Assembly (NCBI RefSeq): GCF_013359755.1
Contig: NZ_JABMCJ010000077.1
Location: forward strand, 1 to 64,000
Direction of reading: 5' to 3'
DNA length: 64,000 nucleotides
From: Tardiphaga robiniae
GTDB lineage: Bacteria > Pseudomonadota > Alphaproteobacteria > Rhizobiales > Xanthobacteraceae
The position numbers and the translations under genes were made by a program. Numbering within the stretch: position 1 is the stretch's first letter; each line of letters opens with the position of its first letter. The notes below the pieces were generated by a model that saw nothing but the letters and a program-made list of their open reading frames with translations, did not search any database and was not told the origin of the DNA. Positions 1-6,374 of the stretch are shown here, one piece after another.

Positions 1-685
1 GGCTACCCTGTCCCTCCGCCCTGGGACACTAATTTTGGTGATGGGGCCGTTCGCCAAGGCAGATGTGCAGGCAACCGAAAAAACACCGCAGGCGGAACGT
101 CGGGCAATCGCTCGGCGCCTCCGAAAGTCCTGATGCACTCTAAATTGCGGAAGACCGCATCGCATCAGGCCCAAGGGTGCAACGGGCACCCGGCGTTCCG
201 CACGCCCTCTCAACAGAGGGCGGGAATGCAAGACACGACGGCGCCCCCGCGCCGCAAACAATGGGGGCGATGACGCATGTCTGAAGAGCAGTGGCTGTTT
301 GACAGTTGAATCTGAACTAGCGTGACGCGCGCACGCTCAAACCAAACGCCGTCATGCCCGGCGCATGCCGGGTATCCACGTCTTGGCGACAAAGCAAGGC
401 GTGGATGGCCGGAACAGGTCCGACCATGACGTGGGAGAGGCCTGGGTCATTGCGAAGCTGGCTTCGCGCTGTCCGCGCATGACGACCGAGAGCGTTACGC
501 GAGATCGCAGGATCGGTAGAGCACGGGCGCATCGCTCCGGAGCGAGCCCATGCTGCGTTCCAGCGCGCAGGTGAGCGCATCATTAACCCTACCCTGCACA
601 TTCATCGCGGCCACTCTCGCCTGGCAACGTCACACGCATCATCTTGCGTTACGTCATCAGCGGACATCCACCGGGACCTTGAACC
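1..685. other. Non-coding region with repeat-derived sequence
   Basis: No convincing gene is seen here. One frame is open from the left edge to about position 270, but its translation is a low-information mix of Gln, Arg, Pro and Thr without a start or domain. The stretch around 170-235 resembles, from memory, an intergenic element widespread in Bradyrhizobium. A palindromic unit lies at 350-431. The 5' region of the Tat-exported gene starts at the right end; no clear promoter motif is visible. Confidence 0.55.
350..431. repeat. Intergenic palindromic repeat (REP-like)
   Basis: The unit is bounded by cgtcatg and catgacg and contains a second inner pair (tatccacgtcttg against caaggcgtggatgg), giving a long imperfect hairpin. 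Elements with this layout are common between genes in Bradyrhizobium and relatives. No transposase is attached. Confidence 0.6.
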
Positions 686-2056
686 ATGGACCTGCATCGC
701 CGCCATCTGCTGACTGCGTCCGGCGCGGGTCTCGCCGCCGGCGCATTCGCCGCATCGAGTGACGCGGCACGCGCCGCCACGCTCACCTCGACGCTCGGAC
801 GCGACGCCACGCAATATGGTGTGCGTGCCAATAGCCAGGACGACCAGACCCGCGCATTGCAACGCGCCATCGACGAGGCGGCACGCGCGCAGGCACCGCT
901 CGCATTGCCGCCCGGCAACTATCGCACCGGCATGCTCAGGCTCGCGCGCGGCTCGCAGATCATCGGTGTGCGCGGCGCAACGACCCTCACCTTCAGCGGC
1001 GGCGCGTCACTGCTGTCAGGCGAAGGCGCGGACTATGTCAGCCTCAGCGGCCTCACGCTGGACGGCAACTTCGCCAAACTGCCGCCGCGGCGCGGGCTGC
1101 TGCACATGGTCCAGGCGCGCGAACTCCGCATCAGCGATTGCACCGTTAGCAATAGCGGCGGCGCCGGCATCTGGCTGGACAACACGGCGGGCGCGATCAC
1201 CGGCAATACACTCGCCAACATCGCCACCACGGCGATCGTCTCGTTCGATGCGCAGGGATTGATCGTCGCGCAAAACACCATTTCCGGCACCAGCAGCAAC
1301 GGCATCGAGATCCTGCGCACCGCCATCGGCGATGACGGCACGCAAGTGATCGACAATCGTATCGAGGACATCAAGGCCGGCCCCGGCGGCTCCGGTCAGT
1401 ATGGCAACGCCATCAACGCTTTTCGTGCGGGCAATGTCATCGTCTCCGGCAATCGCATCCGCAATTGCGATTACTCGGCGGTGCGCGGCAACTCCGCATC
1501 GAACATCCACATCACGGGCAACAGCGTGTCGAGCGTGCGCGAAGTCGCGCTCTATTCGGAATTCGCCTTCGAGGCCGCGGTGATCGCCAACAACACCGTC
1601 GATGGTGCGGCGCTCGGTGTCTCCGTTTGCAACTTCAACGAAGGCGGCCGTATCGCCGTCGTACACGGCAACATCATCCGCAACCTGCTCCCGAAGCGGC
1701 CGATCGGTACGGCGCCCGACGACGATGCCGGCATCGGCATCTATATCGAGGCGGACGCCAGCGTCAGCGGCAATGTCGTCGAGAACGCGCCGTCCTTTGG
1801 CATGATCGTGGGCTGGGGCAAGTATCTGCGCGATGTCGCCATCACCGGCAACGTGGTGCGCAACAGCTTCATCGGCATCGGCGTATCGGTCGCGCCGGGC
1901 GCCGGCACCGCGCTTGTCAGCAACAACATGATTTCAGGCGCGCCGCGCGGCGCTGTGGTCGGCCTCGATCATGCAAAGCCGGTGACGCCGGACCTCACCG
2001 CCGATGGCGCACAGCGCTATCAGCAGATTGCCCTCTCCGGGAACATGGTGCGCTAA
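686..2056 (+). CDS. Tat-exported parallel beta-helix repeat protein (TIGR03808-like)
   Basis: The protein is 456 residues. It opens with a twin-arginine signal (RRHLLT at residues 5-10, then a small hydrophobic stretch and AxA-like end near 27-30), so it should be exported folded to the periplasm. The rest is a run of Asn/Gly/Ile/Val-rich units of about 22-25 residues (NNTV, GNVV, GNRI and similar), the pattern of a right-handed parallel beta-helix as in pectate-lyase-like proteins. No catalytic residues can be assigned. Length and signal fit the TIGR03808 family of Tat-translocated repeat proteins of Bradyrhizobium relatives. The stop overlaps that of the convergent gene by 4 bases. Substrate is unknown; polysaccharide binding is only a guess. 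Confidence 0.8.
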   Translation: MDLHRRHLLTASGAGLAAGAFAASSDAARAATLTSTLGRDATQYGVRANSQDDQTRALQRAIDEAARAQAPLALPPGNYRTGMLRLARGSQIIGVRGATTLTFSGGASLLSGEGADYVSLSGLTLDGNFAKLPPRRGLLHMVQARELRISDCTVSNSGGAGIWLDNTAGAITGNTLANIATTAIVSFDAQGLIVAQNTISGTSSNGIEILRTAIGDDGTQVIDNRIEDIKAGPGGSGQYGNAINAFRAGNVIVSGNRIRNCDYSAVRGNSASNIHITGNSVSSVREVALYSEFAFEAAVIANNTVDGAALGVSVCNFNEGGRIAVVHGNIIRNLLPKRPIGTAPDDDAGIGIYIEADASVSGNVVENAPSFGMIVGWGKYLRDVAITGNVVRNSFIGIGVSVAPGAGTALVSNNMISGAPRGAVVGLDHAKPVTPDLTADGAQRYQQIALSGNMVR

Positions 2057-2574
2057 AGCGCCGTCCGCAGCATCGGATAGCGCGCGCTCATCACCAGAGG
2101 ATCAAGCGCTTTCTGCCAATCCAGATCTGCCGGCGTCACCGCCGCTTGGCGTGGCGGAGCCTGCCGCAACAGGGTTTCGATCGGGATCAAGACGGGCGAA
2201 GCCGCTTCAGCCACCGGCTCGATGTCTGGCTGCAACGGCGCAACCGCGGGCGCTGCGATGGCAGGAGCCGCGACGGCAGCCGGCCGTGGTGGTTCAGAGG
2301 CGCGCGGCGCCCGGTAGATCACCCCTTCCGAAGACAGCACGCGCCTCACGGCGGCAGTCTCGCCCTCGACCATCAGCCGCCAGCGTTCAACCGCTTCCTT
2401 GGCTTCCTGAATGTTGTCGAGAAACTCGGCTTCGCTGTGAAAACGGCGCCACCGCCCACTCTCGAACAGTTCTGTCAGGTAATCCAGTCGACTCTCGGCA
2501 AGAGCGCACCAGCGCTGGGCCAGTGGCCGACCGATGCCGGCATGCGGGTAAGGAAAATTCAGGTGAGATGACAT
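2053..2574 (-). CDS. TIGR03809-like conserved hypothetical protein
   Basis: This is a 173-residue soluble protein without signal peptide. Residues 15-75 are helical and charged (the AQRWCALAESRLDYLTELF stretch and the following EAxEAVERW pattern) and are the conserved part. The C-terminal half is Ala/Pro-rich and probably disordered. It resembles the TIGR03809 family, which I recall as restricted to Bradyrhizobium relatives and often next to TIGR03808 genes, as here. The two genes converge with stop codons overlapping (TAA/TAG in 2053-2056), so they are not co-transcribed. No function is known and no strong ribosome site is visible before the ATG. Confidence 0.65.
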   Translation of the reverse strand: MSSHLNFPYPHAGIGRPLAQRWCALAESRLDYLTELFESGRWRRFHSEAEFLDNIQEAKEAVERWRLMVEGETAAVRRVLSSEGVIYRAPRASEPPRPAAVAAPAIAAPAVAPLQPDIEPVAEAASPVLIPIETLLRQAPPRQAAVTPADLDWQKALDPLVMSARYPMLRTAL

Positions 2575-2981
2575 GGAAATGTCCGCAAGAGAAAAAACGG
2601 ACGCAAAGCAACAAACGAATCACTCACCAATACTTGGAGAGTTTCTGTGGAAAAGTTTTCGGGGTCCAGCGCAATGTGGTCAAACTTGGACAATTGCGTT
2701 GGAAACACGTGAGAAAGCCCCGTCAAACCTGAGGTATTGCAGTCAAGCCTTGCTTGAGCCTTGCTCGATGCCGGGCCATGCACCGGCAATCTATGACCTG
2801 AAGGTTAAAATTTTTGGTTAACAAAAACGAAAGACCCGTCCGGGGGGACAACCGGACGGGTCAAGCTATACCGGCGCGAATGTTTGGGCGCATGCGCCGG
2901 ATATGGCCTCGTTGGGGAGGGAATGCCGCTCCCACATCCATATGTCCGGTCCACCCGGCCAAACGTTCAACGATCAGGAGA
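2575..2981. other. Intergenic region between TIGR03809-like and S8 protease genes
   Basis: About 400 bases without a supported gene. The right part holds the terminator of the minus-strand protease operon; the left part must contain the promoter of the TIGR03809-like gene, but I cannot recognise its elements. Short open frames here have no ribosome site or domain. Confidence 0.5.
2833..2862 (-). terminator. Rho-independent terminator of the sigma/anti-sigma/protease operon
   Basis: A perfect 11-bp stem (gacccgtccgg / ccggacgggtc) with an 8-base loop. Read on the minus strand it is followed by a T-rich tract (TTTCGTTTTTGTT). It lies about 120 bases after the protease stop codon. Confidence 0.8.
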
Positions 2982-4766
2982 TTATTTTTGGACGTCTGAC
3001 GCCATCGACGGCGACGATGCCTCGACCGCACGCGTCGTCGGCGCCGGCGCGGTGACGACAACAGGCGTGACAGGCGCAGGCCCTGTCGCCACGGGGTGCT
3101 GAGCGCCCTGCACTGCCGATACCGCACTATAGGCATCCGCCGCGCCGGCACCGAACAGGTCGTCACGGCCGGGCGCACCAAGATCACGCGCGGTTGTCAT
3201 CAGGATGCTGCGGATCTCGTTCGGCCGTAGTTGCGGATTGCGCTCGATCATCAATGCGGCGAGCCCGCTGATGTAAGCCGCCGAGAACGAGGTGCCCGAC
3301 GTCATCTGGTACTTGTTGTCCGGTGCGGGCAGGAAGATATCGACGCCCGGCGCAGCCACCGCGATGTGGCTGCCGCGGTTCGACGCGGTGAACAGCCTGT
3401 CATACGCATCGGTGGCGCTGACTGCGATCACGCTGGGGCTGGCAGCAGGATAAAGCGGCGGCGATTTCGGTCCGGCATTGCCTGATGCTGCGACCATCAC
3501 GATGCCCTTGCTGGCTGAGGCCGCAATACCGCGCTCGATCAGTGGATCCTGCGGGCCGGCAAAGCTCATATTGATGACCTGGGCGCCATTCATGGCCGCG
3601 TGGTTGATACCCTTGAGGATCACGAAAGACGAACTCTCGGCACCGCCCTGCGACACACCAAAAGCGCGAATGGCAAGAATGCGCGCACGCGGCGCACTGC
3701 CCATCAGCCGCGCATGCGACACGATCGCACCCGCAATGCCAGTGCCGTGCACATGCGCACCTGCCTTGCTGCCAAGCGCATCGAACGAACCCACGATGGC
3801 ATCAGCAAGTTCGGGATGCGCGACGTCGATGCCGGAGTCGATCACAGCGACCGTGACATTGGCACCGGCGGACAGCTTGTGCGCCTCGGGCAGACGCAGC
3901 TTCGCCAGCGCGTATTGTGCAGGATCGCCCTCGCCCAGCACCGGCGTTGTCACCTGGTCCTGCAACACATAGCGAAAATTGGGTTGCACAGCGCGTACGT
4001 CAGCCTCGGCGCGCATCTGGGACTCGACAGTTTCGACCGAACGATTGTCGGTGATCCGGAACAGGTTGATCGTCGCGCCGATCAGCGGAAAATCCTGCGA
4101 CGACAGACGCTCCAGGCGTAGACGGCGCGCCAGCGCAGCTGTCTGGTCGGGCGTCAGCGCGCTGTCGAGTTCGGCGACGATCTGTCGTGGGACGTAACGC
4201 GTGTTGAGGGCCGCCTGCGGGCCGTTGCTGCGCGGTCCACCACCGGCATTCTGGCTGCGGGGCGTCGGGCCGCCGCCGCCGAGATCAGCAACTAATGGCT
4301 TCTCGTTGCATTCGCCGGATGCCGCGCGATTGGCATAGGCGCAGCTCGGATAGGTGTTGGGCGAATAACGCACATAAGGAATGGTTGGCAGCACGCCCAC
4401 GATCTTCGACGGTGGCGTACGCCCTGGCCGCGAGGATATCGGCGGTGCCCGGCTGGCCGTCGTCCCGATCGCCGTACCGCGCGGGCCGACGCTGGTGATA
4501 CCGACGCGACCAGCAATGGGTCCGCGGCTCACGATATTCGGGCCACGGCCGGCGATGCGACCCGCGCCGGCAGCGATGTTCGGATTGATGCGCGGTGTTG
4601 TGCTGGGTGCGATCGTGGGAACGCGCGATCCGATATTGAGGCTCGGCGAGCGCATCATACTCTGCGCGCCAGCGACCGAAAGGCTGAACGGCCATGCGAC
4701 GGCGAGCGAAAGCACAGCGGCCGTGCATTTCATTATCGGTCCGGAGGCACCACGATCATGTCTCAT
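2982..4766 (-). CDS. Secreted S8 (subtilisin-like) serine protease with I9-like prodomain
   Basis: The product is 594 residues. A signal peptide spans about 12-35 (KCTAAVLSLAVAWPFSLSVAGAQS region). Residues 40-185 are a Gly/Pro/Arg-rich low-complexity stretch with two cysteines at 142 and 153 that could pair. Residues 190-267 look like an I9/fervidolysin-type inhibitory prodomain ending in AVQPNF. The subtilase domain carries the triad Asp310 (VIDSGID), His340 (HVHGTG) and Ser493 (GTSFSA), with Asn430 as oxyanion residue. The C-terminus is Pro/Thr-rich. The ATG at 4766 is preceded by GAGG at good spacing; a second in-frame ATG at 4733 is possible. It is the last gene of the operon with the ECF sigma and anti-sigma genes, 47 bases after the latter. 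Confidence 0.88.
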   Translation of the reverse strand: MRHDRGASGPIMKCTAAVLSLAVAWPFSLSVAGAQSMMRSPSLNIGSRVPTIAPSTTPRINPNIAAGAGRIAGRGPNIVSRGPIAGRVGITSVGPRGTAIGTTASRAPPISSRPGRTPPSKIVGVLPTIPYVRYSPNTYPSCAYANRAASGECNEKPLVADLGGGGPTPRSQNAGGGPRSNGPQAALNTRYVPRQIVAELDSALTPDQTAALARRLRLERLSSQDFPLIGATINLFRITDNRSVETVESQMRAEADVRAVQPNFRYVLQDQVTTPVLGEGDPAQYALAKLRLPEAHKLSAGANVTVAVIDSGIDVAHPELADAIVGSFDALGSKAGAHVHGTGIAGAIVSHARLMGSAPRARILAIRAFGVSQGGAESSSFVILKGINHAAMNGAQVINMSFAGPQDPLIERGIAASASKGIVMVAASGNAGPKSPPLYPAASPSVIAVSATDAYDRLFTASNRGSHIAVAAPGVDIFLPAPDNKYQMTSGTSFSAAYISGLAALMIERNPQLRPNEIRSILMTTARDLGAPGRDDLFGAGAADAYSAVSAVQGAQHPVATGPAPVTPVVVTAPAPTTRAVEASSPSMASDVQK

Positions 4767-4813
4767 GGAACAGGCCTCGCACGCACAATGCGGATCGGAT
4801 CAACCGACGGCGC

Positions 4814-5548
4814 CTACTGCGCCTGAACCGCCATGCTGACGATCTTCTCGTTCTCCAGCCGGCGGATCAGCCCGGCGATCTGGTCCTTGGTCATCACCCG
4901 ATTGCCGAACTGCAGCCGGAACAGCCCGTCCTTGCCGCTGTCAACAATCGTACCCTGATAGCCATCGAGCAGCGCCGTGATGTCAGACACCCGTGCAGTC
5001 GGCGCAAAACGGACGAACAGGCGCGTCGGGGCTTCCACCGAGGCCGGTGCCGGCGCGAGCGACCGGGTGACAGTGGTCGGTGCACTCGCCGGCGACGGCG
5101 CGGCTTCATAGGATGCGGTCTGGAATGAGTGTGTATCGCGCTGCATCAGCACGGTACCAATCACACCGGCCTGCAGCATGATAGCGAGCGCGCCAACAGC
5201 GGCCGAAGCCGCCAGCGTCCGCGGCGAAAGCGATGCGAAAAATCCGGAAATCCGCGCCGACAGACCGACCGATGTCGATCCGCTGCGCACCGGCTCGGCG
5301 TCAATCGCAGCAAACAGCTTCTGCATTGCCCGTGAGGACGGCGCACCGAGGCTCTCATTGAGGCCAATGGTCTCCGCATATTCTTCCTGGATCACGGCAT
5401 ATTGCTTCGCCAGTTCCGGATCCTTGGCCAGTGCATCATCGACGCGGCGAGCATCACGCGCGTTGAGCGTGCCCGCGGCGTGCCAAGGCAGCAATGCCTC
5501 GATCTCACCTGGCTCCTGGGTCGGCACTTTGTTGCTCATCGCCATCAT
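4814..5548 (-). CDS. Membrane anti-sigma factor with protease-propeptide-like periplasmic domain
   Basis: The product is 244 residues. Residues 10-85 form a cytoplasmic anti-sigma domain starting EIEALLPWHAAGTL, of the zinc-less kind since the usual HxxxCxxC is absent. One membrane helix lies at about 112-135. A Pro/Ala/Ser linker (147-175) leads to a periplasmic domain at 176-242 with a beta-alpha-beta-beta-alpha-beta pattern (LFVRFAP ... IVDSGKDGLFRLQF ... LIRRLENEKIVSMAV). That pattern matches the prodomain of the neighbouring S8 protease. The start codon overlaps the sigma factor stop as ATGA (5545-5548), indicating translational coupling. Role: holds the ECF sigma factor at the membrane until an envelope signal releases it (family knowledge; signal unknown). 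Confidence 0.82.
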   Translation of the reverse strand: MMAMSNKVPTQEPGEIEALLPWHAAGTLNARDARRVDDALAKDPELAKQYAVIQEEYAETIGLNESLGAPSSRAMQKLFAAIDAEPVRSGSTSVGLSARISGFFASLSPRTLAASAAVGALAIMLQAGVIGTVLMQRDTHSFQTASYEAAPSPASAPTTVTRSLAPAPASVEAPTRLFVRFAPTARVSDITALLDGYQGTIVDSGKDGLFRLQFGNRVMTKDQIAGLIRRLENEKIVSMAVQAQ

Positions 5549-6114
5549 GGCCAGCCTCGTTCAATGCCGGCTGCCTTGAGCAGATCGGCTAATTTCTTGC
5601 GCGCATAAAACAGGCGCGTCTTGACGGTGTTCTCGGGAATTCCGACGATCTCGGCCACCTCTTCCACGGACTTCTCGTGGTAGTAGACGAGATCGACGAT
5701 TTCCCGATGCTCGGGCGAAAGGGATGTCAGGCACTTTCGCAACGCGTCACTGGTATCCTTTTTCTGAACCGACACTTCGGGGTTATCGGACGTATCCTCG
5801 ATCGCGTTGGCCGTCTCGTCGTCCAGTTCGGCGTCCTTGCGCTTGCGCAGCGCGGACAGCGCCTTGAACCTCGTAATCGCCAGGAGCCAGGTCGAGACCG
5901 CGGAACGGCCCTCGAATTTGCCTGCCTGCCGCCACACATCCAGGAACACTTCGCTGATAAGATCCTCAGCAATCTGTTCGTTCCGCACCAGCCGAAGGCC
6001 GAAGCGAAACACCCGGACGTGGTGCCTGCCATAAAGCACCTGCATGGCAAGACGGTCGCCTTGCGCAATCCGGGCGATCAGAATCTCATCCGATGCCGCC
6101 TGTGTTGCACTCAC
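5545..6114 (-). CDS. ECF-type RNA polymerase sigma factor
   Basis: From the GTG at 6114 the protein is 189 residues, the usual ECF size. Region 2 is clear (LYGRHHVRVFRFGLRLV, then IAEDLISEVFLDVWRQ and the STWLLAITRFKAL promoter-melting segment). Region 4 has SPEHREIVDLVYYHEKSVEE followed by the helix-turn-helix VAEIVGIPENTVKTRLFYAR. The open frame extends upstream to 6315, but that extra part has no family similarity. The start is preceded by a weak GAG-containing site. First gene of the sigma / anti-sigma / S8 protease operon. No ECF promoter motif could be read with certainty upstream, so autoregulation is not shown. Confidence 0.88.
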   Translation of the reverse strand: MSATQAASDEILIARIAQGDRLAMQVLYGRHHVRVFRFGLRLVRNEQIAEDLISEVFLDVWRQAGKFEGRSAVSTWLLAITRFKALSALRKRKDAELDDETANAIEDTSDNPEVSVQKKDTSDALRKCLTSLSPEHREIVDLVYYHEKSVEEVAEIVGIPENTVKTRLFYARKKLADLLKAAGIERGWP

Positions 6115-6374
6115 TGCCCGTCTCGCAAGGTTGGTCTGAATGAGGATGTAAGAGGTTCGATTGACAAGATAAAATCTTCTCGAATGGGCAGGAATATACC
6201 GGTCGCGGCTGCTTTTAACCGCGCCGAACGGGCTTTTACCGCCCTTTTCTTGGGCGGAACGGGTAACAGGTAGCATAATGCTGGGGCATTTCCGACCCGA
6301 ACGCCAGCGATTCACACGGCAACCTTACCAAGTCGTGGCTTCCGGAACAGCCTTGAGACGGAGGAACCTGCATT

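Follow-up and report, generated by a model that had tools for sequence, protein, structure and literature searches.

A subtilase prodomain-like domain on a membrane anti-sigma factor of Tardiphaga robiniae, and the ECF sigma operon that encodes it

The stretch of DNA analysed here (the window) comprises 64,000 nucleotides of Tardiphaga robiniae (assembly GCF_013359755.1, contig NZ_JABMCJ010000077.1, positions 1 to 64,000). An operon on its minus strand encodes an extracytoplasmic function (ECF) sigma factor, a membrane anti-sigma factor and a subtilase of peptidase family S8. The periplasmic domain of the anti-sigma factor is very probably homologous to the prodomain of subtilases, and the promoter motif that precedes the operon also precedes an alpha-2-macroglobulin gene of the same genome. 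The operon, the homology of the domain, its association with S8 genes and the occurrence of the motif at both operons were established by computation. With a prodomain-like outer domain and apparent control of a protease trap, the system therefore probably senses envelope proteases, and an envelope protease sensor with a logic resembling that of the anti-sigma factor RsiV is, by analogy, its most likely identity. A first reading of the window (the sequence-only reading) had pointed out the likeness between the anti-sigma domain and the prodomain of the neighbouring protease. That observation is confirmed, and the interpretation given with it, a tethered decoy propeptide, is partly supported.

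The periplasmic domain of the anti-sigma factor

The features of the system in the window are the following.

5545–6114, minus strand: ECF sigma factor, GTG start, 189 amino acids (aa); matches to PRK12515, Sigma70_r2 and r4_2
4814–5548, minus strand: membrane anti-sigma factor, 244 aa, ATGA overlap with the ecf stop; sub-threshold zf-HC2 and anti-sigma matches
5144–5218, minus strand: single transmembrane segment of the anti-sigma factor, about residues 111–135, at the hydropathy maximum
4817–5041, minus strand: C-terminal periplasmic prodomain-like domain of the anti-sigma factor, residues 170–244 (hhalign, AlphaFold2, Foldseek)
2982–4766, minus strand: S8 subtilase, 594 aa; Peptidase_S8 match, N-terminal signal sequence (by eye), Gly/Pro-rich linker
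3963–4214, minus strand: fervidolysin-type prodomain of the protease, residues 185–268 (PF22148, AlphaFold2 model)
3144–3866, minus strand: S8 catalytic domain, residues 301–541 (Pfam Peptidase_S8)
6131–6160, minus strand: ECF-type promoter motif TCGAACC-N17-GACCAA, the probable autoregulatory promoter of the operon, conserved 5′ of ecf in relatives
2833–2862, minus strand: terminator-like hairpin 3′ of the protease gene, with an 11-pair stem and then a T-rich tail

Profiles of 62 orthologous anti-sigma C-terminal domains and of 45 operon protease prodomains were aligned with hhalign. The two profiles aligned in register over 63 columns (score 29.6, probability 77.5, E 1.9e-5). Shuffling the columns of either profile 200 times gave mean scores of 10.5 and 10.2, with best scores of 18.2 and 17.9 and none as good as the real alignment (0/400); a reversed profile scored 19.1. 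The residue pairing proposed earlier by inspection (VRFAP with VAELDS, LFRLQF with LFRITD, IVSMAV with VRAVQPNF) was reproduced by this alignment, in which RLFVRFAP is paired with QIVAELDS, GLFRLQF with INLFRIT and EKIVSMAVQ with ADVRAVQP (anti-sigma domain first).

The predicted structures agree with the alignment. AlphaFold2 modelled the anti-sigma domain as beta-alpha-beta-beta-alpha-beta, like solved prodomains (pLDDT 86.6; E6-12, H18-27, E30-35, E40-45, H52-64, E68-73). The elements predicted for the protease prodomain (E9-18, H24-33, E36-44, E49-56, H62-70, E75-83) follow in identical order, so that the common fold pattern suggested by the sequence-only reading holds in models of both domains. 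A Foldseek search was carried out with the anti-sigma domain model and the best 50 of 1092 rows were viewed. The top TM-scores among them belonged to subtilase prodomains (9fie_B, TMq 0.70; three 9fid chains, 0.62–0.63); 1spb_P gave 0.58/0.61, and the prodomain matches had probabilities of 0.99–1.00. At the sequence level, two of eight distant orthologues scanned passed the cut-off of 21 for PF22148 (Fervidolysin_NPro-like), namely L199 (22.3 bits) and L201 (27.0 bits). Among 35 distant members, 9 matched this family with E-values of up to 1, and at most two matched any other family. The ending LAEP, typical of prodomains, was seen by eye in 6/35.

The protease itself is an S8 subtilase (Peptidase_S8, 151.6 bits against a cut-off of 21.8, E 3.8e-44) with an Asp/His/Ser triad: D310 in the motif DSGID, H340 in HGTG and S493 in GTSFSA, which begins at residue 491. 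Its prodomain (residues 188–263) scored 18.6 bits (E 0.0025) with PF22148 in a scan of the whole protein, the gathering score being 21, and 22.8 bits, above the cut-off, in a scan of the genome, where it was the sole PF22148 match. The AlphaFold2 model of the protease (mean pLDDT 66.7; prodomain blocks mostly 88–94) matches pro-subtilisin E and fervidolysin in Foldseek. The gene is the only match to this protease in its genome at 1e-5.

Ferredoxin-like folds are common, and the resemblance could be convergence on such a fold by a domain and an operon unrelated to prodomains. The Foldseek rows include ribosomal protein S6 as well as RRM and ACT domains, and SPOR was weakly matched by 2/38 family-level anti-sigma factors. 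The TM-scores, the two orthologues above the PF22148 cut-off, the in-register match that none of the shuffles equalled and the LAEP endings argue against convergence, which we consider very improbable. Pure fold convergence was rejected on the profile, Pfam and structure evidence, and identity with a SPOR domain was rejected with weak matches in those two anti-sigma factors only.

Several results weigh against the view that the domain is a prodomain put to use as a protease sensor. In the Foldseek search no E-value was below 0.001, and first by E-value was ribosomal protein S6, with a TM-score lower than those of the prodomains. At E up to 5, PF22148 matched neither the window's anti-sigma domain nor the other 37 family-level anti-sigma factors. 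When PDB sequences were searched with the profile of the domain, the 10 rows returned (E 0.15–0.3) included no prodomain. In solved complexes, the C-terminal tail of a true prodomain fills the active site of the protease. The anti-sigma domain lacks the tail of a prodomain or I9-like inhibitor: the protein ends a median of 3 residues (range 2–10, 142 sequences) past V241, which lies in the last strand, and the active-site-filling segment is therefore missing. Thus, a docking handle is more likely than an active-site decoy.

Association with S8 genes and lineages without them

The three genes are arranged as first described from the sequence: the ATGA overlap is followed by a gap of 47 bases between the anti-sigma and S8 genes, and the terminator-like hairpin lies at the end. 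The survey for this gene order which the sequence-only reading had proposed found the set of three genes to be conserved. The anti-sigma factor was matched in 65/100 family genomes, own included. One stretch was sampled from each of 63 of the 64 other genomes, G029 being left out as a weak match, and an S8 gene adjoins the anti-sigma gene in 45 of the 63 (one of the 45 is broken). Stretches L056 and L066 end at contig ends, with S8 pieces next in line. The best 80 of 277 named loci, mostly Bradyrhizobium, comprise 71 full triads, 8 loci with room but no S8 gene and 1 that ends too soon. At the class level, the anti-sigma factor was found in 11/289 genomes, own included, and ECF and S8 genes occur in the same 10-kb stretch in 10/10 other genomes, the anti-sigma gene of L207 being on the opposite strand.

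At the phylum level, 48/398 genomes were matched, and 40 stretches from 38 genomes were sampled; the genomes not used here were the own one, eight of genus g25 and G136, which had been sampled before. The domain is present in 26/40. An S8 gene was found in 22/26 stretches with the domain against 1/14 without it (Fisher 2.4e-6, kinship ignored), an association that is not fully independent, since the domain HMM behind the count was trained on 27 anti-sigma factors of which 25 have S8 neighbours. The single S8 gene among the 14 domain-less stretches is divergently placed. The S8 gene lies before that of the sigma factor in L238 and L239, and L256 has its anti-sigma gene on the opposite strand. 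The domain occurs without S8 in L258, L259, L263 and L264. In L258 and L264, the neighbours of the prodomain-like anti-sigma gene are a sulfate-permease-like gene and a gene for another small protein that carries this domain.

The lineages without S8 count against a sensor dedicated to the neighbouring protease. In L259 (2219-5400), the ECF and prodomain-type anti-sigma genes are followed by a caspase-like peptidase gene (Peptidase_C14) and then an M23-domain gene, a possible exchange of the S8 partner for a caspase. On a family tree of 58 rows, the 12 S8-less rows need 7 changes, 4 of them forced by well-supported branches; these are read as losses because distant relatives have S8. The protease was searched genome-wide (threshold 1e-5) in 19 genomes in which an S8 gene next to that of the anti-sigma factor was absent or in doubt. 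There was no match in 7/19, of which G072, G028, G067 and G093 are at least 99% complete, G076 90%, G099 84% and G007 74%. Moreover, the domain is kept in S8-less lineages, and its conservation relative to the cytoplasmic part is not reduced there. Relaxation of the domain without S8 was rejected, the conservation residuals being higher, not lower, in 23 S8-less proteins (Mann-Whitney p 1e-5, kinship ignored).

Among the other 12 genomes searched, an unlinked S8 gene of the same subfamily is present in G053, G021, G009, G079 and G096, and in G053, G079 and G096 it forms part of a very long exoprotein-like open reading frame (ORF). Only distant S8 matches were found in G089, G050, G046 and G002. 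A contig end interrupts the locus in G012 and G036, where the S8 gene comes next on the other side; the adjacent S8 gene of G043 is broken. Genomes were searched in the same way for 6 of the 8 named S8-less loci; five have only distant matches (best 2.5e-14) and one has none. The linker from the transmembrane segment to the domain measures 32–46 residues in 9 loci without a found S8 gene (one at a contig end) against a mean of 25, range 20–42, in 71 loci with S8, a difference confounded by clade. Very long exoprotein-like ORFs (>1600 aa in frame) ending in the same prodomain and S8 catalytic domain were seen in L177, L180, L181 and L183; by eye, an outer-membrane-transporter-like ORF adjoins the one in L181. 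The adjacent S8 gene of L035 is split into several frames, as is its ecf gene, probably as a pseudogene or an assembly error.

The earlier interpretation would have been undermined by homologues that routinely lack the protease gene and keep the domain unchanged. Such homologues were found in a minority of genomes, some without any S8 match, with the domain if anything better conserved, and the gene set is otherwise conserved. Of the tethered decoy propeptide, the prodomain-like nature of the domain stands; the missing active-site tail and the loss of S8 in several lineages do not fit it. Persistence of the domain without S8, together with the missing tail, speaks against reading the domain as an active-site decoy of the S8 protease next to it and nothing more; a pure decoy of that protease is too simple.

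The same persistence favours the main rival explanation, in which an old prodomain now serves as a general sensor of the envelope or as a lid that protects the anti-sigma factor. It would no longer make contact with a subtilase, and the sigma factor would have S8 and the macroglobulin simply as its outputs. In favour of this explanation, lineages without S8 retain the domain with no sign of relaxation, its active-site tail is lacking and its neighbour in L259 is a caspase-like gene; the promoter evidence given below lets S8 and the macroglobulin both be outputs. A generic sensor does not, however, predict S8 in so many of the phylum-level loci with the domain and in only one of the others. A protease sensor is favoured by the S8 gene so often found next door in distant lineages and by the link to the macroglobulin, and we regard the general sensor as rather unlikely.

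Co-transcription and the conserved gene set would also agree with a simpler role of S8, as a plain site-1 protease that cuts the anti-sigma factor, the domain being a substrate or degron recognised by its sequence and not as a prodomain. Prodomains are natural substrates of their own proteases, which is in line with such cleavage. However, the S8-less genomes keep the sigma factor, the anti-sigma factor and the promoter motif and would therefore need another protease, and the prodomain nature of the domain would be left unexplained. This explanation appears improbable.

Promoter motif at the operon and at the alpha-2-macroglobulin gene

For the protease-sensor reading, the domain by itself is a weaker argument for a protease theme than the link to the macroglobulin promoter, of which the sequence-only reading makes no mention. 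Across the family, S8-less loci included, the motif [TC]GAACC-N17-GACYAA is conserved 5′ of ecf. Within 150 bases 5′ of ecf, the strict motif is present in 124/138 loci, with a spacer of 17 in 123 of them. A search of the own genome with TCGAACC-N16-18-GACCAA found 7 sites, and its reversed control found 1. One of the 7 starts 260 bases before a gene for a 1739-aa alpha-2-macroglobulin (L293, C6:196500-204500, gene 462-5678), which is followed by PBP1C. The macroglobulin has bMG3/5/6/10, MG2, bait-region, A2M and TED domains above cut-off and the thioester-type motif GCSEQ.

Secreted TPR/SEL1-like repeat proteins (L286, L289, L292 and L325, by eye) likewise have the motif shortly before them, both in the own genome and in that of a congener; the ORFs at these places span the motif and their start sites are uncertain. 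In genome G016 (L308), it starts 76 bases before an ORF resembling, by eye, a secreted caspase-family protein.

Genomes with and without the system, the latter being those without an anti-sigma match in the family search, were compared in two samples. A macroglobulin gene is present in 22/22 and 15/18 system-bearing genomes against 4/10 and 9/18 genomes without the system. The strict motif was found in the 500 bases 5′ of this gene in 15/22 and 3/15 system-bearing genomes (18/37 in all), and in 0/4 and 0/9 (0/13) genomes without the system. Two points tell against control of the macroglobulin by the sigma factor: the motif is absent at this place in 19/37 system-bearing genomes, and the pattern used for the macroglobulin counts and the 138-locus counts allows A at one -10 base, which was added after a first look. 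The first 22 genomes minus the window's genus and G059, which fed motif discovery, leave 18 that are independent. In these, the motif is present in 11/18 against an expectation of 0.07 (background 0.0037 per 500 bases), with a spacer of 17 in 10. With the C/T form only, 3/18 independent loci match (L341, L346 and L348), the chance of which is about 3e-5 by hand calculation.

The motif at the macroglobulin gene accompanies S8, being present in 16/24 genomes with S8 against 2/12 without (Fisher p 0.012; G043, with its broken S8, left out), a link that is no more than suggestive, as these tests ignore phylogeny. Such co-occurrence would fit a macroglobulin that protects the cell from its own subtilase.

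Proposed mechanism, related systems and neighbouring gene

In a receptor model, a prodomain-derived sensor would release the sigma factor upon a subtilase trigger and give an autoregulated response to protease; for us the balance of belief in it stands level. The membrane anti-sigma factor would hold the ECF sigma factor, and its periplasmic sensor would be derived from, or share ancestry with, a fervidolysin-type subtilase prodomain. The domain may act as a receptor for a mature subtilase, either the operon's own or, in S8-less lineages, another envelope protease. Docking by the domain, or cleavage near it, would make the anti-sigma factor a substrate for regulated proteolysis. From promoters of the [TC]GAACC-N17-GACYAA type, the sigma factor would drive its own operon and, both in the window's genome and in many of its relatives, the alpha-2-macroglobulin-pbpC operon. 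Its release would thereby raise the amounts of receptor and subtilase and yield the macroglobulin trap. The outcome would be an autoregulated, self-limiting protease response, like that of RsiV for lysozyme. Here, we infer contact between domain and protease, intramembrane proteolysis and the direction of the response.

A wider form of this proposal, to which we give somewhat less credence, is a protease-surveillance circuit found Proteobacteria-wide. A captured propeptide displayed by the cell would meet a subtilase, its own or that of an attacker, and through the sigma factor raise the macroglobulin trap, a cell-wall synthase and more receptor.

Many ECF sigma factors have no known signal. 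At this operon, three things can be read from sequence side by side: a recognisable sensor domain in the form of a protease propeptide, the subtilase as its linked candidate ligand, and alpha-2-macroglobulin with PBP1C as the output that the promoter defines. The resulting hypothesis is open to immediate testing in Bradyrhizobium and Tardiphaga. If true, it would place proteases among the enzymes that anti-sigma factors sense directly, and the system would be a protease counterpart, spread across Proteobacteria, of the RsiV lysozyme switch. It also suggests how bacterial alpha-2-macroglobulin is regulated. In open-licence PubMed Central text (titles and abstract starts, best rows for some queries), neither a description of this system nor a report of macroglobulin-PBP1C control by a prodomain-bearing ECF system was found.

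Stand-alone propeptide-like inhibitors of subtilases exist (I9 type, e.g. POIA1). The domain described here shares their fold and that of fervidolysin-type prodomains, two of its orthologues passing PF22148; unlike them, it is fused to a transmembrane anti-sigma factor and lacks the C-terminal active-site tail. As in RseA-DegS/RseP and other anti-sigma systems of regulated proteolysis, the anti-sigma factor spans the membrane once, and release of its sigma factor by proteolysis is proposed; unlike in RseA-DegS/RseP, the operon contains no DegS-like protease and the sensor is prodomain-like. The gene order macroglobulin then PBP1C, here downstream of the motif, is that of the bacterial alpha-2-macroglobulin-PBP1C operon, which we take to be of the yfhM-pbpC type.

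RsiV, the anti-sigma factor of sigma V in Bacillus subtilis, is described in an excerpt of PMC5014341 as both receptor and inhibitor of lysozyme, with an autoregulated operon that includes a resistance gene. The system of the window would resemble it, to the extent covered by that excerpt, in having a membrane anti-sigma factor with an outer domain acting like an enzyme inhibitor and receptor, an autoregulated ECF sigma factor and a regulon that gives protection from the enzyme. The enzyme of RsiV is lysozyme and not a subtilase, whereas here the candidate enzyme is co-encoded, and the likeness would be one of mechanism. RsiV was absent from the 50 of 1092 Foldseek rows viewed, and no direct comparison with RsiV was made. 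ECF54-type systems, according to an excerpt of PMC8999054, likewise have subtilase genes near the sigma gene; unlike the present system, they are proposed to work without an anti-sigma factor, by proteolysis of the sigma factor itself.

The sigma factor of the window belongs to the PRK12515-type ECF subfamily (352.6 bits against an NCBIfam cut-off of 236, E 3.9e-106). The window's anti-sigma factor falls below the cut-off of the zinc anti-sigma family zf-HC2 (13.9 bits against 22.2) and has no cysteine in its N-terminal domain; at E up to 5, zf-HC2 was matched by 36/38 family-level anti-sigma factors (best 4.2e-5). Its closest named relative among the best 80 of 277 matches is that of Tardiphaga sp. 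P9-11, which is 99% identical. The scan that located the terminal hairpin found no intergenic terminator-like hairpin on the minus strand between the three genes. It counted 5 terminator-like sites in the region where shuffled sequences had 3.8, and the number of sites itself is therefore not above chance.

Directly downstream of the operon (2053-2574, minus strand), the window encodes a small protein with no Pfam match. By eye, look-alikes of it follow the anti-sigma gene in the S8-less loci L037 and L046, which suggests clean loss or gain of S8 at that spot.

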